Below are positions 6,351 through 26,317 of a DNA stretch of 35,057 nt, piece after piece. The notes below the pieces were generated by a model. That model ran no database searches, was not told the origin of the DNA, and saw only the letters and a program-made list of their open reading frames with translations. The position numbers and the translations under genes are program-made. Location of the stretch: positions 1 to 35,057 of IMG/VR virus record IMGVR_UViG_3300035196_000195. One strand, written 5' to 3'. The first letter of the stretch is position 1. Every line of letters begins with the position of its first letter. The DNA comes from a virus.

Positions 6351-8759
6351 CTATTTTTGTGTTGCTTTAGCAGCATTAGCTTTCATTTTTTTATCTTCGT
6401 TATCCATTTTATCTTGATGGACTATCTTATCATGTTCAAATTTCTCTCTTGCTAGTTGCTGGGCAGATTGTTTAATGTCTGCATCAAGTCCATCTCTAGC
6501 TATTTCAATGAAATCATTTACTCCATCTTGATCTTTATCCATGTCAGGATTAAAGGATGCAGCCATGAGACCACCTTTAACAATCTCTGTTTCTCTTCTT
6601 TCTTCTTCTTTGAGTCTAATCATATTAGCTTCATGCTCCCATGTCTCTTTGATAAACTCTCTTGCTTTGTCAGCCTCTTCTGCATTTGCTTGTAGCTGCT
6701 CTTGTTGTGCTTTTTGTTCATGGTCTCTTCTTACTTGTTCAGCAGCTTTAAGAGTCTCTTCAGCTTCAACAATTCCAGTCTGTTTAACAACAGCTAGTAC
6801 ATCTGAGAACTCAACTTTCTGAGCCTGTAGTGCAGCGTGAGCTAGAGTTCTTACTAATTCTTGAGCTTCTTCAGCTTTGGCTGCATTAGATACAAATAAA
6901 CCTAGAGTAGAATTATCCAATAGAGCTATGTCTAAATCAATGATCTTTCTACTAAAGTCGTCCAAAATGTAAGTCAGCTTTTTCTTACCTGAATTAGCGT
7001 AAGCAATTTTGGCAGTCTCAAGTAATGCCTGTAGTACACTTTTCTTCAAGTGATTATGTAAATCAAAGTAAGGTTCTAATATATGTGATGATTGGATTAA
7101 GTTTTGTTGAGCATTACCTTTACCTTCATAAGCTCCAGTTTGTCCTTCAACTCCAGGAGTAATTCCTACAGAGAGTCCCGCTTGTTGCTTTAAGTATTCA
7201 GCAAGTTCAATATATTTTCCAATATCAGAAGCTAAAGACAAATCAATAGTCTTAGCCATAGTGTTTACATCATTGTATTCTACCCCTTCTTCATTAGGGT
7301 CATACCACATTACTGGTGATGCATCCATGTAGTATTTCCATTTCTCAATGTCGATACCAGCACTATCTGGGATAGCATTAATGTTCATCATCACTTTCTT
7401 CCCTTTGTCAGATGCTAAAAGCAACTCTAATCTGTACATTACAATGTTGTAGTAGTACTGGTAGACTTTCAATCTATCCATAAGAGCTGTCTCTTGAGAG
7501 TTCATGTTATCATAAATCACTCCATAGTAAGGAAGCTTACAGTAATATAAGTTTTCAATATCTTTAAATTGACCTGGGATAGGTCTCATGTGCTTGTAAA
7601 TGTCTGAACCAATCTTCCACGTTTCATATACTTCTGGAATCCATTTCCAATCTACAGAAATATCTCCTGAATCTACATCCATCTCATAGCTTTCGTCTAC
7701 TATAACTTCCTGCTCCTCACCCTGCTCATTGACAAAAGTAAGGAATCCAATCTTTCTTAAAGACTTCCAGGTACAATGTAATACTCTGACAGTTGCGTAA
7801 TCCTCTTCATCATCACTATCGTTAAAGCTAAAAATGCTATCTCGAAGTCTACTCTGAGTATAATTTGCAAAGTCACTATAGACTTTATCAATTTCTGTTT
7901 GATTCAACTCATCATTAAATCTAGCAATTACTTCTGAAGGAGTCATTCTGTATTCACAAGTTGCCCATTCACCATCTTGAGTAAAAGGAGTGTCAGTAGA
8001 CTTCTCACAATTAAACCTAATAGAATTTACATTCCAAGCTTCAGGCTCTCCATTCATAGTACCTACATACATAATACCTTTGGCAGATAATAAACCATGC
8101 TTAAAGGCATCATTAAATTTTCTTTTAAGGTCACATTTTTGTATTAGGTATTCTAGTAATTGGTGGGATAAAACTTCAGCAGGGTCTTGATGGTCTCTCT
8201 CCATGTACTTTCGTACACTATCTGGAGTCATTTGTTTTGTCTCCGCTTCTACTTGTTGTTGTATCTTTTCTACTTGTTGTTGACTTAATTCACCAGCACT
8301 CTTCATTTGTTGTTGAGCTTTCACTTCAACCTCTTGTCTAATTGGTTGCATGATAGAGCTAATGACAAATTCTCTAATCCTTTTAAACTCTTCATCTTCT
8401 CTTCGTGTAGTGGCTTCAGGATTAGTGGCAATAACTTTCCAGGAAAAAGACCTCTTCATTTCCATGCCTAGCATAGCTTTGATCTTCCCTGATACAATAT
8501 CTCTATTTACCATTGTTGCTGGCAATTCTCCTACATCTGCACCATAAGGTTGGCAAACATACTCGAAGTCAGCTAGATTAAGAATGTTATTAAAAAGATC
8601 GTAGTTTACTTTTTGTCTCTTGTAATCTACTATATCACCATACCCAGTACCTCCGTTCTGTTGAGTGTCCAATAAATCAGCCTGTTCTTTATACCAGCTA
8701 AAGTCACCTGCTTTTTTAGCAGAAGTACTTAGTCGTTGGTTCTGAGTAATTTTTTTCAT
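6351..8759 (-). CDS. Portal protein
   Basis: This 802-residue protein fits crAss-like portals in length, order and motifs. It forms the dodecameric DNA gate at one capsid vertex. Visible are the N-terminal conserved region with LADFEYVCQPYG and MVNRDIVSGKIKAMLGMEMKRSF, a long wing/stem region with aromatic-rich segments (YCKLPYYGVIYDNMNSQET), a region like QAGLSVGITPGVEGQTGAYEGKGN (tunnel-loop side), and a C-terminal Glu/Gln/Lys-rich coiled coil (about residues 640-802) that would form the barrel. It lies 20 bases after TerL. Confidence 0.92.
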   Translation of the reverse strand: MKKITQNQRLSTSAKKAGDFSWYKEQADLLDTQQNGGTGYGDIVDYKRQKVNYDLFNNILNLADFEYVCQPYGADVGELPATMVNRDIVSGKIKAMLGMEMKRSFSWKVIATNPEATTRREDEEFKRIREFVISSIMQPIRQEVEVKAQQQMKSAGELSQQQVEKIQQQVEAETKQMTPDSVRKYMERDHQDPAEVLSHQLLEYLIQKCDLKRKFNDAFKHGLLSAKGIMYVGTMNGEPEAWNVNSIRFNCEKSTDTPFTQDGEWATCEYRMTPSEVIARFNDELNQTEIDKVYSDFANYTQSRLRDSIFSFNDSDDEEDYATVRVLHCTWKSLRKIGFLTFVNEQGEEQEVIVDESYEMDVDSGDISVDWKWIPEVYETWKIGSDIYKHMRPIPGQFKDIENLYYCKLPYYGVIYDNMNSQETALMDRLKVYQYYYNIVMYRLELLLASDKGKKVMMNINAIPDSAGIDIEKWKYYMDASPVMWYDPNEEGVEYNDVNTMAKTIDLSLASDIGKYIELAEYLKQQAGLSVGITPGVEGQTGAYEGKGNAQQNLIQSSHILEPYFDLHNHLKKSVLQALLETAKIAYANSGKKKLTYILDDFSRKIIDLDIALLDNSTLGLFVSNAAKAEEAQELVRTLAHAALQAQKVEFSDVLAVVKQTGIVEAEETLKAAEQVRRDHEQKAQQEQLQANAEEADKAREFIKETWEHEANMIRLKEEERRETEIVKGGLMAASFNPDMDKDQDGVNDFIEIARDGLDADIKQSAQQLAREKFEHDKIVHQDKMDNEDKKMKANAAKATQK

Positions 8760-16366: not shown

Positions 16367-16449
16367 TTTTTTAAAGGTTTGTGAAAATTTTTTAGAAAAA
16401 TGTGAGTTTGTGAGCCACCCTAATTAAAACCCCCTCTCATTTTCCCAAC

Positions 16450-20876: not shown

Positions 20877-21224
20877 ATGAAGAACTTATTAATCTTTTTA
20901 GTATTGGCATTTAGCATCAACGCTAGTGCTCAAACATTCACAGCATCTAAAGGTGGTGGATTTGATGTAAATACAGGAACACCTGTTAGTAATATTGTTG
21001 TTGGAGACAAGACATTTGATACATTTACCACGACTGGTGGTTCAGAGTATATCAAATGTAATAGTCCTAAGACTGGCAATGATTACGCTGTTTGGGTTGG
21101 GAAACCAACTGAGCATGTATTTGAAGGTAATAATGTTAGAGTGAGCAAGAAAGGCACATTCTTTATTATCATTCTTAGTAAGAATACTGGGAATCCTTAT
21201 AACAAATACTTGAAAAGTAACTAA
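20877..21224 (+). CDS. Small exported protein
   Basis: The 115-residue product has a clear signal peptide, MKNLLIFLVLAFSINASAQ, with cleavage after ASA. The mature domain is Gly/Thr/Asn-rich and beta-like (FTASKGGGFDVNTGTPVSN, SEYIKCNSPKTGNDYAVWVG). It should act in the periplasm or at the surface. A terminator follows. Superinfection exclusion or protection of the infected cell is a reasonable guess, nothing more. Confidence 0.68.
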   Translation: MKNLLIFLVLAFSINASAQTFTASKGGGFDVNTGTPVSNIVVGDKTFDTFTTTGGSEYIKCNSPKTGNDYAVWVGKPTEHVFEGNNVRVSKKGTFFIIILSKNTGNPYNKYLKSN

Positions 21225-21296: not shown

Positions 21297-21749
21297 ATGA
21301 AATACTTAATTTTACTTATACTCCTGGTAGTTTCTTTTAATTTATCAGCTCAAAACCGAACTATTCCATCACCAAATTCTAGAAGTTTTATGTGGAATGG
21401 TGATAAGGGTGAATTCGTGGAAGTGGAGTTCTTTTTTTATCTAGAAGGAGACTCTTCAATTGTAGCACCAACTTATGGTAAGATGAAAAGACTAATCATG
21501 GAATCTATGGGATTTGCTAAGCACCATGTAGCTACGAAGTACACTCGACATGTTTCCCGTACTTTTACTCCTCTTACAATGACTGTTCTTGCTCATCCAG
21601 ATGGAAAGGGTATTTTGGTCCAAGTTGAATATACTTTTAGTAAGGGGGGGAGAATAATAAATGGTGTACCAGAAAGAAATCCAGTTCTAGGTCAAACAAA
21701 TATTCGATTTGCTTATGACTATAGATACGAGAAATTGTTAACACCTTAA
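21297..21749 (+). CDS. Exported protein, 150 residues
   Basis: The product begins with a signal peptide (MKYLILLILLVVSFNLSAQ) cleaved after SAQ or LSA. The mature part is mixed alpha/beta with many Arg/Lys (SMGFAKHHVATKYTRHVSRTFTPLTM, LVQVEYTFSKGGRI). It is the second consecutive small exported protein. Its TAA stop is inside the stem of the terminator at 21746, so translation and termination are tightly coupled. Confidence 0.65.
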   Translation: MKYLILLILLVVSFNLSAQNRTIPSPNSRSFMWNGDKGEFVEVEFFFYLEGDSSIVAPTYGKMKRLIMESMGFAKHHVATKYTRHVSRTFTPLTMTVLAHPDGKGILVQVEYTFSKGGRIINGVPERNPVLGQTNIRFAYDYRYEKLLTP

Positions 21750-21842: not shown

Positions 21843-21857
21843 TCTTTCCTACCTATC

Positions 21858-21878
21858 TTCAAGACCCCCACTAATTTG
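21858..21878 (+). promoter_or_regulatory. Repeated C-tract intergenic motif, copy 3
   Basis: TTCAAGACCCCC joined to ACTAATTTG: one change (A to G) from copies 1 and 2, identical to copy 4. The next gene starts 340 bases on, so the transcript would carry a long leader or separate small RNA. Confidence 0.7.
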
Positions 21879-22217: not shown

Positions 22218-22580
22218 ATGAAAAAGATGACAAAGGGATTATTAACAGATAGTAAAATAGCACGTAAAGTGTCTGCACTACAAAGACAGTATGCAAGAAA
22301 GCGAAGATTGAATCAATCAAATAAGTCTTTCTTTTTAGCTGATACTTATAGTGAGTCATATTTAAACAAAATCTTGGAGAATATCCGAAGATTGACAGCA
22401 TGTATGGGTAAACCATTGTATATCTCAACTATTCATGTCTATGAAAATGATAAAATGGGTATGCCTCAGTTTGCTGGAGTCATTGAACATGGACCAGTAA
22501 TTAAAGAAACAAATGCTTTAGGTGAAGTAAGATATACTGCAACATATGACCCACCAAGAGAGCGAAGAGTTAGAGGGTAG
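22218..22580 (+). CDS. Basic protein, 120 residues
   Basis: Start set at 22218 (ATATCATG), giving MKKMTKGLLTDSKIARKVSA; earlier in-frame ATGs fall in or just after a hairpin and add an unlikely leader. The N-terminal half is very basic and helical (ALQRQYARKRRLNQSNK), the C-terminal half acidic and strand-like (YISTIHVYENDKMGMPQFAG, VIEHGPVIKETN), ending in a basic tail. Nucleic-acid binding is possible. Not recognised. Confidence 0.6.
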   Translation: MKKMTKGLLTDSKIARKVSALQRQYARKRRLNQSNKSFFLADTYSESYLNKILENIRRLTACMGKPLYISTIHVYENDKMGMPQFAGVIEHGPVIKETNALGEVRYTATYDPPRERRVRG

Positions 22581-22629: not shown

Positions 22630-23445
22630 ATGAAAAACTTATACAGTATTTTATTAGTATTATTATTTGCAACTGCATGTGCAGCACATCCAGCATGTCC
22701 TACTAGTCATACTCTGACTACAAATGCGAACAACAAGACATTTATCAAGTTCAATCATATTCCTTGTAAAAGCGATAGCATTTACATTGATACGACTGGA
22801 ACTGGTGTGTACGATTTAGGAGGAGTAAGATCAGGGAAGAGAAGATACAAATTCTCTGAGATTACTGGAAATCCATTCTTACACTCAATTAAGTTTGTTG
22901 ACTGCAATGAGATTTGTCAGTACAATCAGTCTCTACCTATTGAGTTAATTGATTTTCAAGTTAATCTTGAAGGTGTGAGAACTAGGTTACAATGGAGGTT
23001 AGCCATGCAAGAGAATCTAGAAAATATAGTGGTAAGAAGAAATGGTAAGGTAATTGAAGTAATTCAAAATACAATTACTGACCAATTATCATGGACATTT
23101 TATGATGAAAACCCTACTGATGGGATGAATTATTACCAACTAGACTTTGTAGATTTTGATGGAGAAAATGAGTTGTCAAATATAGTAGCTGTTCGATATG
23201 ATGCAGTTTCTGATGTGACAGTCAACAAAACTATTGGAGAAGACACCTTTACATTTAAGACCTCGGAAGAGTTCTTTCATTATCAGGTAGTGGTCTTTGA
23301 TATGACAGGGAAATTAATATCCCAAAACGTTTGGGACTCGCAGGAGTCATCTAGCTTAGACATTGATTTGTCTTATCCAGGTTTATATATCGTGTCAATA
23401 TTTAATGGAGTCGAAAAGAATGCCTTTAAATTGACAAAATTATAA
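22630..23445 (+). CDS. Secreted protein with T9SS C-terminal sorting domain
   Basis: The 271-residue product has an N-terminal signal peptide (MKNLYSILLVLLFATACAA), a short Cys-containing N-terminal region (about 20-98), then SLPIELIDFQ at residues 101-110 followed by RLQWRLAMQENLENIVVRR and a fibronectin-like fold. This is the wording of Bacteroidota SPxELxxF-V-L-W-T-E-N domains that precede sorting signals. Residues about 195-271 match the type A C-terminal domain of type IX secretion: FHYQVVVFDMTGKLI and LSYPGLYIVSIFNG, ending KLTKL. It should be carried through the host T9SS to the cell surface and possibly anchored. A terminator follows. A surface masking or adhesion role is inference. 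Confidence 0.78.
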   Translation: MKNLYSILLVLLFATACAAHPACPTSHTLTTNANNKTFIKFNHIPCKSDSIYIDTTGTGVYDLGGVRSGKRRYKFSEITGNPFLHSIKFVDCNEICQYNQSLPIELIDFQVNLEGVRTRLQWRLAMQENLENIVVRRNGKVIEVIQNTITDQLSWTFYDENPTDGMNYYQLDFVDFDGENELSNIVAVRYDAVSDVTVNKTIGEDTFTFKTSEEFFHYQVVVFDMTGKLISQNVWDSQESSSLDIDLSYPGLYIVSIFNGVEKNAFKLTKL

Positions 23446-23502: not shown

Positions 23503-23576
23503 GCCTTGGTAGCTCAACTGGATAGAGCAACACTCTTCTAAAGTGTAGGTTCTAGGTTCAAATCCTAGTCAGGGTA
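23503..23576 (+). tRNA. tRNA-Arg(TCT)
   Basis: Plus-strand cloverleaf: acceptor GCCTTGG/TCAGGGT (G-T pairs), D-arm GCTC...GAGC, anticodon arm ACACT/AGTGT with loop CTTCTAA (anticodon TCT), T-arm CTAGG/CCTAG with loop TTCAAAT, discriminator A. It reads AGA, the arginine codon favoured in this AT-rich genome. CCA is not encoded. Confidence 0.9.
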
Positions 23577-23617
23577 CTAAATTTATTCTTAATACTAAAT
23601 ACTAAAAAACACTCATA

Positions 23618-24355
23618 ATGAATTTTCAAACAATACAATCCAAAGTTCCCTCCTTTACAACTTTTTGTAATATGCTGGGGAAAATAACGTTGGTAATATT
23701 AATTATAATGTTATTCTTCGTTAAGAAAATAAACATTAACCTGGTCATTGATAAAGAAGTGATACAGTTAAAAGAAGAAGTTACACTACGAGACTTATCC
23801 ACAAGTGCTGTCAGAGTAAGTAATGTCTCTCCCTCTTTAGAAAAAGAAGAAGAGGTGATAAGCTCTGAAATGACAGACTATGAAATAACATTCTTATTGC
23901 TCAAGTCTTGTGAAAGTTTTAGACCTACAGCTTACTGGGATGTTAACCAATGGACAAATGGTTGGGGAACAAAGAGTAAGGAAGGAGAAGTTATCTCTTT
24001 AAAGGAAGCTAATAAAAGGGCATCTAAAGAGTTCAATAGAGTTTACTCCAGCCTTGACAAGAGGTTTCCTAAATTAGAACGTTGGACTAAGTTAGTCCTA
24101 ACCGTGACAGACTATAATGTAGGTCATTTTGGGGAGCAGTTGAATTCTGCTATTAACTCTGGAAATAAAGTTGAAATAGCTAGAGTTATGAAACTTTACT
24201 TTCGTGATGCTAATGGTAAAAAATTAGATGGTCTAGTGAAGAGGAGAAACAAAGAAGCAGCTCTATTACTAGCAAGTAGAAGAGATAAGCAGAAGATTGG
24301 AATCAAGATAAAGAAAAAGGTTCTAGATCAGATAAAGAAAAATAGACTAGGTTAG
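23618..24355 (+). CDS. Membrane-anchored GH24 lysozyme (endolysin)
   Basis: This 245-residue protein cleaves the glycan backbone of peptidoglycan. Residues 1-35 carry a hydrophobic signal-anchor (ITLVILIIMLFFV); residues about 36-80 form a linker; the catalytic domain starts near residue 88. The GH24 triad is visible as E99 (LLKSCESF), D108 (AYWDVNQ) and T113 (WTNGWGTK), with E-x8-D spacing as in T4 lysozyme. The N-terminal anchor suggests a SAR-type or membrane-tethered endolysin. The next gene is a small membrane protein, making a lysis cassette likely. Confidence 0.85.
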   Translation: MNFQTIQSKVPSFTTFCNMLGKITLVILIIMLFFVKKININLVIDKEVIQLKEEVTLRDLSTSAVRVSNVSPSLEKEEEVISSEMTDYEITFLLLKSCESFRPTAYWDVNQWTNGWGTKSKEGEVISLKEANKRASKEFNRVYSSLDKRFPKLERWTKLVLTVTDYNVGHFGEQLNSAINSGNKVEIARVMKLYFRDANGKKLDGLVKRRNKEAALLLASRRDKQKIGIKIKKKVLDQIKKNRLG

Positions 24356-24392: not shown

Positions 24393-24797
24393 ATGAAGAA
24401 TTTATTATTACTAATGTTCTTATTTATTACTATCTCTTTGAATGCACAATCATCAACAGATAAGTATGAAACTTTTAAGACTTCTTTGGAAGGAATGTCT
24501 TTGGTAGATTATGCTGTACAACAAGAGCGTAGATTTGAAAAGTCAGGAAAGACAAAATTATTGAAAGGGAGACTTCTTGTTTTGACTGGTGTTGCTTTAG
24601 GCGTAATGGGTGCGGTGGGATTATCAGAATTAAGTGGTGTCCCATCAGGAAAAGGGAAGGAGATTGATACTGGTGTTGCAATTGGTGCTATGGCTCTTGG
24701 TAGTATGGCATTTACTGTTGGACTAGCAAATATTACAATAGGCAAAAAGGATTATCGAGAATCTAAAAGAATGCTAAAGAACGGCTTTAAATTTTAA
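24393..24797 (+). CDS. Exported membrane protein, possible holin/spanin partner
   Basis: The 134-residue product has a signal peptide (MKNLLLLMFLFITISLNAQ) and, after a charged region, two Gly-rich hydrophobic segments (LLVLTGVALGVMGAVGLSEL and GVAIGAMALGSMAFTVGLAN) separated by a short loop, ending in a basic tail. Placed 37 bases after the lysozyme it may be a lysis membrane component, but the cleavable signal is unusual for a holin. Envelope protein of another kind is equally possible. Confidence 0.6.
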   Translation: MKNLLLLMFLFITISLNAQSSTDKYETFKTSLEGMSLVDYAVQQERRFEKSGKTKLLKGRLLVLTGVALGVMGAVGLSELSGVPSGKGKEIDTGVAIGAMALGSMAFTVGLANITIGKKDYRESKRMLKNGFKF

Positions 24798-24996: not shown

Positions 24997-25385
24997 GGGG
25001 GCGACATGGAGAGACTGGGTTTTAAATTTATACGAACATGTAGTGGAAAGCTTATTAACCACTTAAATACTAATAAGTAAAACATAATTGCTAATACAAT
25101 TAACAAAGCAGAGGTAAGTAACGCTATTGCGAATAATTTACTGACTGCAACCTATGTATCTCCTAGAACGCAAGTTTTGGAAGCAGCATAGTAATTCTTT
25201 TTTCTCATTTTTGTTTGAAGTAAAAATGAGATGGTGGAAGTTAACTTCGGTTAGCCCTGGGGAATTGATAATCCCCACAATATGAGGTTGGAACACCTTG
25301 TTTAGCTAGTCACTTAATGACTAAACATGTATAATTTGTATTTTGGAAAATTGTCTGGACCTGGGTTCAAATCCCAGCACCTCCA
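24997..25385 (+). ncRNA. ssrA: tmRNA (transfer-messenger RNA)
   Basis: A 389-base RNA with tmRNA architecture. The tRNA-like ends pair GGGGGCG with CACCTCC, including the G3-U pair recognised by alanyl-tRNA synthetase. A T-arm CTGGG-TTCAAAT-CCCAG precedes the 3' end. Helix 2 is suggested by the segments near 25024 and 25328. A pseudoknot follows: AGTGG/CCACT (25042-46, 25059-63) interlocked with CTTATTA/TAATAAG (25051-57, 25071-77). Twelve bases later a GCT resume codon (25090) opens a 33-codon tag frame starting ANTINK and ending QVLEAA, stopped by TAG TAA. Downstream stems include CTCATTTTT/AAAAATGAG. It would rescue stalled ribosomes and tag the products. Confidence 0.82.
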
Positions 25386-25488
25386 CAAATCCCAAAAAAT
25401 CAGGTTAACCCACGCCTGAGTGAGGAGAAGTAATACATAGAAAATCTTCTCCTCACAATTTTATTAATTAATAATTCAATCTAAAGTC

Positions 25489-26174: not shown

Positions 26175-26317
26175 GGGGGTATAGCTCAGTTGGTAGAGCA
26201 CCTGTCTTATAAGCAGGAGGTCGTAAAGGGTTTCTTAAACTTTATAACGTGAACGAAGTTGAGGTATATGCTGAAGTACAAAGTGTATACACCTGGGTTC
26301 GAGTCCCACTATCCCTA
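26175..26317 (+). tRNA. tRNA-Ile(TAT) with 70-base insertion in T-stem
   Basis: The 5' part is canonical: acceptor GGGGGTA, D-arm GCTC...GAGC, anticodon arm CCTGT-CTTATAA-GCAGG (anticodon TAT), variable loop AGGTC and one further G (to 26223). The 3' part TGGG-TTCGAGT-CCCAC-TATCCCT-A resumes at 26294. Removing 26224-26293 restores GTGGG/CCCAC exactly and a 73-base cloverleaf. The insert has hairpins (GTTT-CTT-AAAC) and an AGGTATA/TATACACCT stem at its 3' boundary. Confidence 0.72.

Follow-up and report, generated by a model that had tools for sequence, protein, structure and literature searches.

Gene layout at the locus and the phage that carries it

The window, meaning the whole stretch of 35,057 nucleotides analysed here, carries on its plus strand a gene for a predicted cargo protein of the type IX secretion system (T9SS), which lies among small exported proteins, RNA genes and a phage lysozyme (Table 1). 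An earlier note on this DNA had proposed that the protein combines a signal peptide, an LPIEL domain and a C-terminal sorting domain. The ORF and all of these motifs were recovered: a hydrophobic N-terminal signal sequence is clearly present, LPIEL starts at residue 102, and the final 50 residues include VFDMTGKLI and GLYIVSIFNG.

Table 1. Features of the cargo locus and its surroundings, in window coordinates
Feature	Position	Strand	Remarks
Small exported protein with signal peptide	20877-21224	+	52% identity in G074; phrog_16207
Small exported protein	21297-21749	+	G001 has a different gene here
22-nt repeated motif CTTCAARACCCCCACTAATTTG, upstream of the cargo cluster	21857-21878	+	
Conserved partner ORF, 120 aa, directly upstream of cargo	22218-22580	+	G074 counterpart in the same place, 33% identity over 105 aa
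Predicted T9SS type A cargo protein, phage-encoded, 271 aa (whole ORF)	22630-23445	+	ATG start, TAA stop
Cargo signal sequence, residues 1-17	22630-22680	+	Signal peptidase I site (ATA/C) and lipobox (ILLVLLFATAC) both fit
Cargo N-terminal module, residues 18-100	22681-22929	+	Variable part; four conserved Cys; predicted beta
Cargo LPIEL Fn3-like domain, residues 101-190	22930-23199	+	Typical of Bacteroidota T9SS proteins
Cargo T9SS type A C-terminal sorting domain, residues 195-271	23212-23442	+	Seven predicted strands
tRNA-Arg (tct), between cargo and lysozyme genes	23503-23577	+	
Phage lysozyme, N-terminal membrane segment; next protein gene downstream of cargo	23618-24355	+	PF00959 47.3 bits; phrog_7
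Small exported protein with signal peptide	24393-24797	+	
Phage-borne tmRNA gene, clustered with tRNAs	24997-25388	+	RF00023 83 bits; predicted tag ends LEAA
tRNA match of 143 nt	26175-26317	+	
ARAGORN tRNA, CTA anticodon	26326-26402		Not supported by Rfam at its cut-off

The window comes from a crAss-like phage of about 93 kb, of which it is a fragment. Matches over nearly full length to phrog_6681, phrog_6547 and phrog_11589 correspond to the crAss-like terminase, portal and major head protein, all encoded on the minus strand. The terminase is 58% identical to that of Flavobacterium phage Fpv2, and its matches comprise the Fpv2 group, Bacteroides phages and records named crAssphage. Contig G001 (93,330 bases) has a backbone about 97.5% identical to the window, against which the region from about 18.9 to 26.4 kb stands out as a variable island containing several small exported proteins, tRNAs, the tmRNA, the lysozyme and the cargo gene. 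Its cargo ortholog shares 80% protein identity with the window copy. In a second contig, G074 (74 kb, with a terminase that shares 78% identity with that of the window), a TIGR04183 match lies in the matching gene order of repeated motif, small conserved ORF and cargo gene. The position of the cargo gene is kept in both contigs, and by this synteny and the surrounding crAss-like genes the cargo gene is judged to be truly phage-borne, as the earlier note had supposed.

The alternative that misassembly or contamination placed a host gene in a viral contig was rejected on the same synteny. The tail half of the protein is clearly related to host proteins; however, three phage contigs share the gene order, the upstream ORF and the phage motif, which makes contamination with host DNA very unlikely, and searches of bacterial genomes found no close relative of the whole protein.

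The host is predicted to be a member of the Bacteroidota, probably of the order Flavobacteriales; relatives of the phage infect Flavobacterium. Each of the four candidate-host genomes searched contains 108-150 TIGR04183-type domains. Among phages, a TIGR04183 match was found in one of 50 terminase-based crAss-like relatives (G074), many of the 50 being fragments, and none was found in Fpv2, the closest isolate found. Queries of phage records with the window's sorting domain alone, or with its DNA, returned no relatives, and generic queries (LPxEL plus domain, or domain only) returned seven distinct records, all uncultured phages. The genes mostly end in TAA, with no sign of a need for stop-codon recoding. 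The 143-nt tRNA match is about 70 nt over the normal length, which marks it as a phage tRNA gene holding an inserted segment or an intron; ARAGORN instead places a CTA-anticodon tRNA at a separate position (Table 1).

The cargo gene is on the strand of the replication genes, and the structural genes are on the opposite strand. Copies of CTTCAARACCCCCACTAATTTG occur on the plus strand at window positions 16449, 18127, 19477, 21857 and 26564, and in all three phages (window, G001 and G074) the motif precedes several gene clusters of the plus strand, including the helicase/DNA polymerase and cargo clusters. The sequence CCCCCACTAATTT has four plus-strand copies, whereas the minus strand and 200 shuffles contain no copy. 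CTTCAARACCCCCACTAATTTG is likely a promoter or control element of crAss-like phages, and its sharing points to expression of the cargo gene with the replication genes rather than the structural genes. No match to the Bacteroidota promoter consensus was found near the cargo gene.

Sequence and structural evidence for the sorting domain

A search with the profiles TIGR04183 and PF18962 had been suggested as a check on the sorting domain. TIGR04183 matched residues 207-268 of 271 with 26.1 bits (E=6.3e-6), above its curated cut-off of 23 bits, and PF18962 was borderline around its gathering cut-off of 27 bits, scoring 23.4 bits by hmmscan and 27.1 bits in a frame search. A host-only HMM, built from the C-termini of 74 bacterial homologs of the tail half with phage sequences left out, scored 42.3 bits (E=1.4e-11) on the cargo protein, compared with 12.7 bits for the highest-scoring of 5000 shuffled versions of its tail and 2.9 bits for the best of 116 other window ORFs. 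Since TIGR04183 is over its cut-off and the host-only HMM scores far above both controls, the sorting-domain observation is confirmed. The ortholog L001 scored 39.1 bits with the host-only HMM and 24.6 bits with TIGR04183; the G074 copy scored 26.5 bits with the former, and with the latter 21.2 bits alone, which is under the cut-off, and 24.8 bits in a frame search.

The start of a T9SS sorting domain usually carries a PNP motif. In the cargo protein the TIGR04183 match begins at profile position 10 and this motif is absent, as it is in one host protein (L192). The LPIEL domain and sorting tail together (residues 101-271) are homologous to hundreds of Bacteroidota proteins, and Bacteroidota account for the bacterial matches without exception. 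The ORFs of these homologs stop at a similar distance past the LPxEL domain.

An AlphaFold2 prediction built on a 20-sequence alignment gave the two C-terminal domains a mean pLDDT per 10-residue block of 62-93, mostly at least 79. The stretch of residues 195-271, for which structure prediction had also been proposed, was modelled as an all-beta Ig-like domain with seven strands over residues 199-270 (block pLDDT 72-93). Unlike these domains, the N-terminal module stays at low confidence, with a pLDDT of 62.6 when predicted alone from two sequences and 38-46 in other models. No known enzyme domain was found in this module, and a sequence search found no solved structure for the cargo protein.

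Structure searches with the model returned many Fn3 proteins, with the T9SS protein PorU at rank 10, and the top match in a viral fold library was a phage protein that already carries the label 'Secretion system C-terminal sorting domain'. The Foldseek and VIA-align tables are dominated by Fn3 domains and carry little information on function. Because the fold is common, the match to PorU is weak and the case is carried by the sequence evidence. The common fold also raises the alternative of a virion or tail protein with Fn3/Ig-like domains, in which the resemblance to a sorting domain would be a by-product. Such domains are common in phage virions, and T5 pb3 is among the fold matches, along with other tail proteins. 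However, a virion protein would not account for the signal sequence, for the strand opposite the structural genes, or for a match at the sequence level to both the sorting domain and the LPxEL domain of exported host proteins, and we regard this alternative as quite improbable.

Signal sequence, modularity and selection

Cargo proteins of the T9SS type A normally have a Sec signal peptide of the signal peptidase I type. The hydrophobic signal claimed in the earlier note is present, but the note had overlooked a lipobox at Cys17: ILLVLLFATAC in the window and ILFLFLFVTAC in G001/L001 satisfy the PROSITE lipobox pattern, which was met by one of 30 bacterial LPxEL/T9SS proteins with a recognizable signal sequence. 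The main rival, which is live with or without T9SS export, is therefore a lipoprotein processed by signal peptidase II and lipidated at Cys17, residing in the outer membrane in the style of phage superinfection exclusion lipoproteins, with the C-terminal Ig-like domain serving as a structural element or second anchor. Lipidation of Cys17 is plausible because this Cys is aligned in all three phages (window, G001 and G074), even though they differ in the remainder of the module. Five Cys are present in the window protein and five in that of G001, so that four would be left if Cys17 is lipidated. In addition, G074 encodes a candidate lipoprotein (L182, TSC/SPDSS; coding strand 7708-8115) immediately before the motif and cargo gene. 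On the other hand, ATA/C and VTA/C obey the AXA rule as well as the lipobox, and the G074 copy has VWA/C, which by inspection does not fit the lipobox and suits signal peptidase I better. The C-terminal domain is also more conserved than the front half, and a spare domain would need no such conservation. Taken on its own terms the lipoprotein explanation seems unlikely, although it is the lipobox-like signal sequence that mainly holds down confidence in a plain T9SS cargo.

Between the window and G001, dN is 0.11 and dS 0.27 over the whole gene; residues 23-100 are 71% identical (dN 0.23, dS 0.52) and residues 101-271 are 89.5% identical (dN 0.052, dS 0.187), making the N-terminal module the most diverged part of the gene. 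The G074 protein aligns with residues 77-268 of the window copy at 42% identity over 192 aa (E=3.5e-41), and blastp detected no similarity between the N-terminal modules of the two. From these alignments, the tail half is conserved across the three phages, and the N-terminal module is either diverged or replaced. The cargo gene is under purifying selection: dN/dS is about 0.23-0.33 in the two C-terminal domains, and no domain of the mature protein reaches 1, which indicates that both parts are maintained as protein.

For comparison, dS between the window and G001 is 0.06 in the helicase and 0.25 in the lysozyme, and this raised dS suggests that the cargo and lysozyme genes form a block that looks to have been exchanged by recombination. 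The lysozyme, being the next protein gene downstream and part of the same divergent block, might imply that the cargo protein is made with it and acts late at the outer membrane, aiding rupture or virion release. However, the gene tested at the matching place in G074 has no detectable similarity to lysozyme, while the cargo gene and its upstream ORF are kept there; features of known spanins are absent; and CTTCAARACCCCCACTAATTTG also precedes the replication genes. A role in lysis is thus improbable, if slightly less so than a place in the virion.

A model for surface display and its relation to known systems

The reading we favor, at a probability of roughly 60%, is that the cargo is a non-virion protein that uses the host T9SS and is displayed on the surface of the infected cell. 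In this model, a crAss-like phage that infects a member of the Bacteroidota would have an accessory gene for a protein brought into the periplasm by its signal sequence, where the host T9SS would recognize it via the C-terminal Ig-like sorting domain. Passage through the T9SS would then place it on the outside of the outer membrane, with the Fn3-like domain as a stalk from which the N-terminal module, small and Cys-containing, may be presented on the infected cell. T9SS-dependent display would follow from the sorting domain, and is clouded by the Cys17 lipobox; the reading is further weakened by the missing PNP motif, the borderline PF18962 score and the low TIGR04183 score of the G074 copy. 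The purpose is only a guess. An altered cell surface directed against competing phages, by superinfection exclusion or receptor masking, is the most plausible candidate, since it is in the exposed module that close phages differ. The interpretation of the earlier note is therefore partly supported, its sorting domain and phage origin being backed by profile, structure, synteny and selection.

Similar proteins were found in other phages. Scans of IMG/VR gave 39 loci with an alignment of the LPxEL domain and tail, and 30 stretches with YYRLKQVD. Among 50 contigs from these scans, 10 passed TIGR04183 and 14 had a large-terminase match, with both in G009, G012 and G046; the IMG/VR viral label alone is no proof, and further support applies only to the terminase-bearing contigs. 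Most of the proteins consist of a signal sequence, a variable front, LPxEL and a C-terminal tail. In many the tail is shorter and undetected by TIGR04183, and chromosomal proteins of Flavobacteriales end in the same short tail. A viral protein of about 690 aa with an LPVEL domain recurs (L056, L075, L076, L077, L079, L082 and others), and in L075 it includes a GEVED domain. Its short tail at the C-terminus, KKVVKYINLxGQEV...YEDGTxKxIR, is missed by TIGR04183 but shared with host proteins of Flavobacteriales, and may be an abbreviated sorting domain.

The huge phages LR756500 and LR756504 also encode proteins with LPxEL and a sorting tail. Like the window cargo, these and the proteins of G006, G012 and G019 have a signal peptide, a variable front, LPxEL and a C-terminal sorting domain, but they differ in their front modules and have an LPxEL nearer the host consensus, and the comparisons made revealed no relation of these phages to that of the window. 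More speculatively, Bacteroidota phages from crAss-like to huge may share a host-derived LPxEL domain and sorting tail with exchangeable fronts for rewriting the cell surface before lysis, the protein of the present clade perhaps being held by both an N-terminal lipid and T9SS attachment; we consider this broader scheme doubtful. If the route is real, phages decorate infected cells through the T9SS of their hosts, providing a counterpart of the phage surface-exclusion proteins of other bacteria that is testable in Flavobacterium. A conserved tail with exchangeable fronts also offers an easy way to search for further proteins of this kind.

Use of the T9SS by phages is not a new idea. Cryophage has three T9SS-labelled genes, for which secretion by the host system and superinfection exclusion were proposed (Bellas et al. 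2020, PMC7468147), and gut phages with BACON repeats (cluster 2) have ORFs with T9SS sorting domains (2019, PMC6949934). No bench test of a phage-encoded T9SS cargo was found in the literature searched. Cryophage resembles the present case in its phage-encoded T9SS type A domains and in allelic variation between closely related phages, but it is another phage and its cargo has endoglucanase, GH39 or PA14 domains (PMC7468147), in contrast to the small Cys-containing module, LPIEL domain and crAss-like carrier described here. The BACON phages likewise have a T9SS sorting domain on phage ORFs, but these adjoin the head module and one is fused to a BACON ORF (PMC6949934), whereas the window cargo is on the replication strand, adjoins a lysozyme gene and has no BACON match. 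Chromosomal LPxEL and T9SS type A proteins of Bacteroidota share the signal peptide, variable front, Fn3-like LPxEL domain and sorting domain at the extreme C-terminus; the window cargo differs from them in being phage-borne, with a lipobox-like signal, a short front and no PNP motif. What is new is a crAss-like clade with a conserved cargo locus in which the front module is swapped and the sorting tail stays fixed, a lipobox-like signal on a T9SS-tailed phage protein, and the presence of similar proteins in several other phage contigs.
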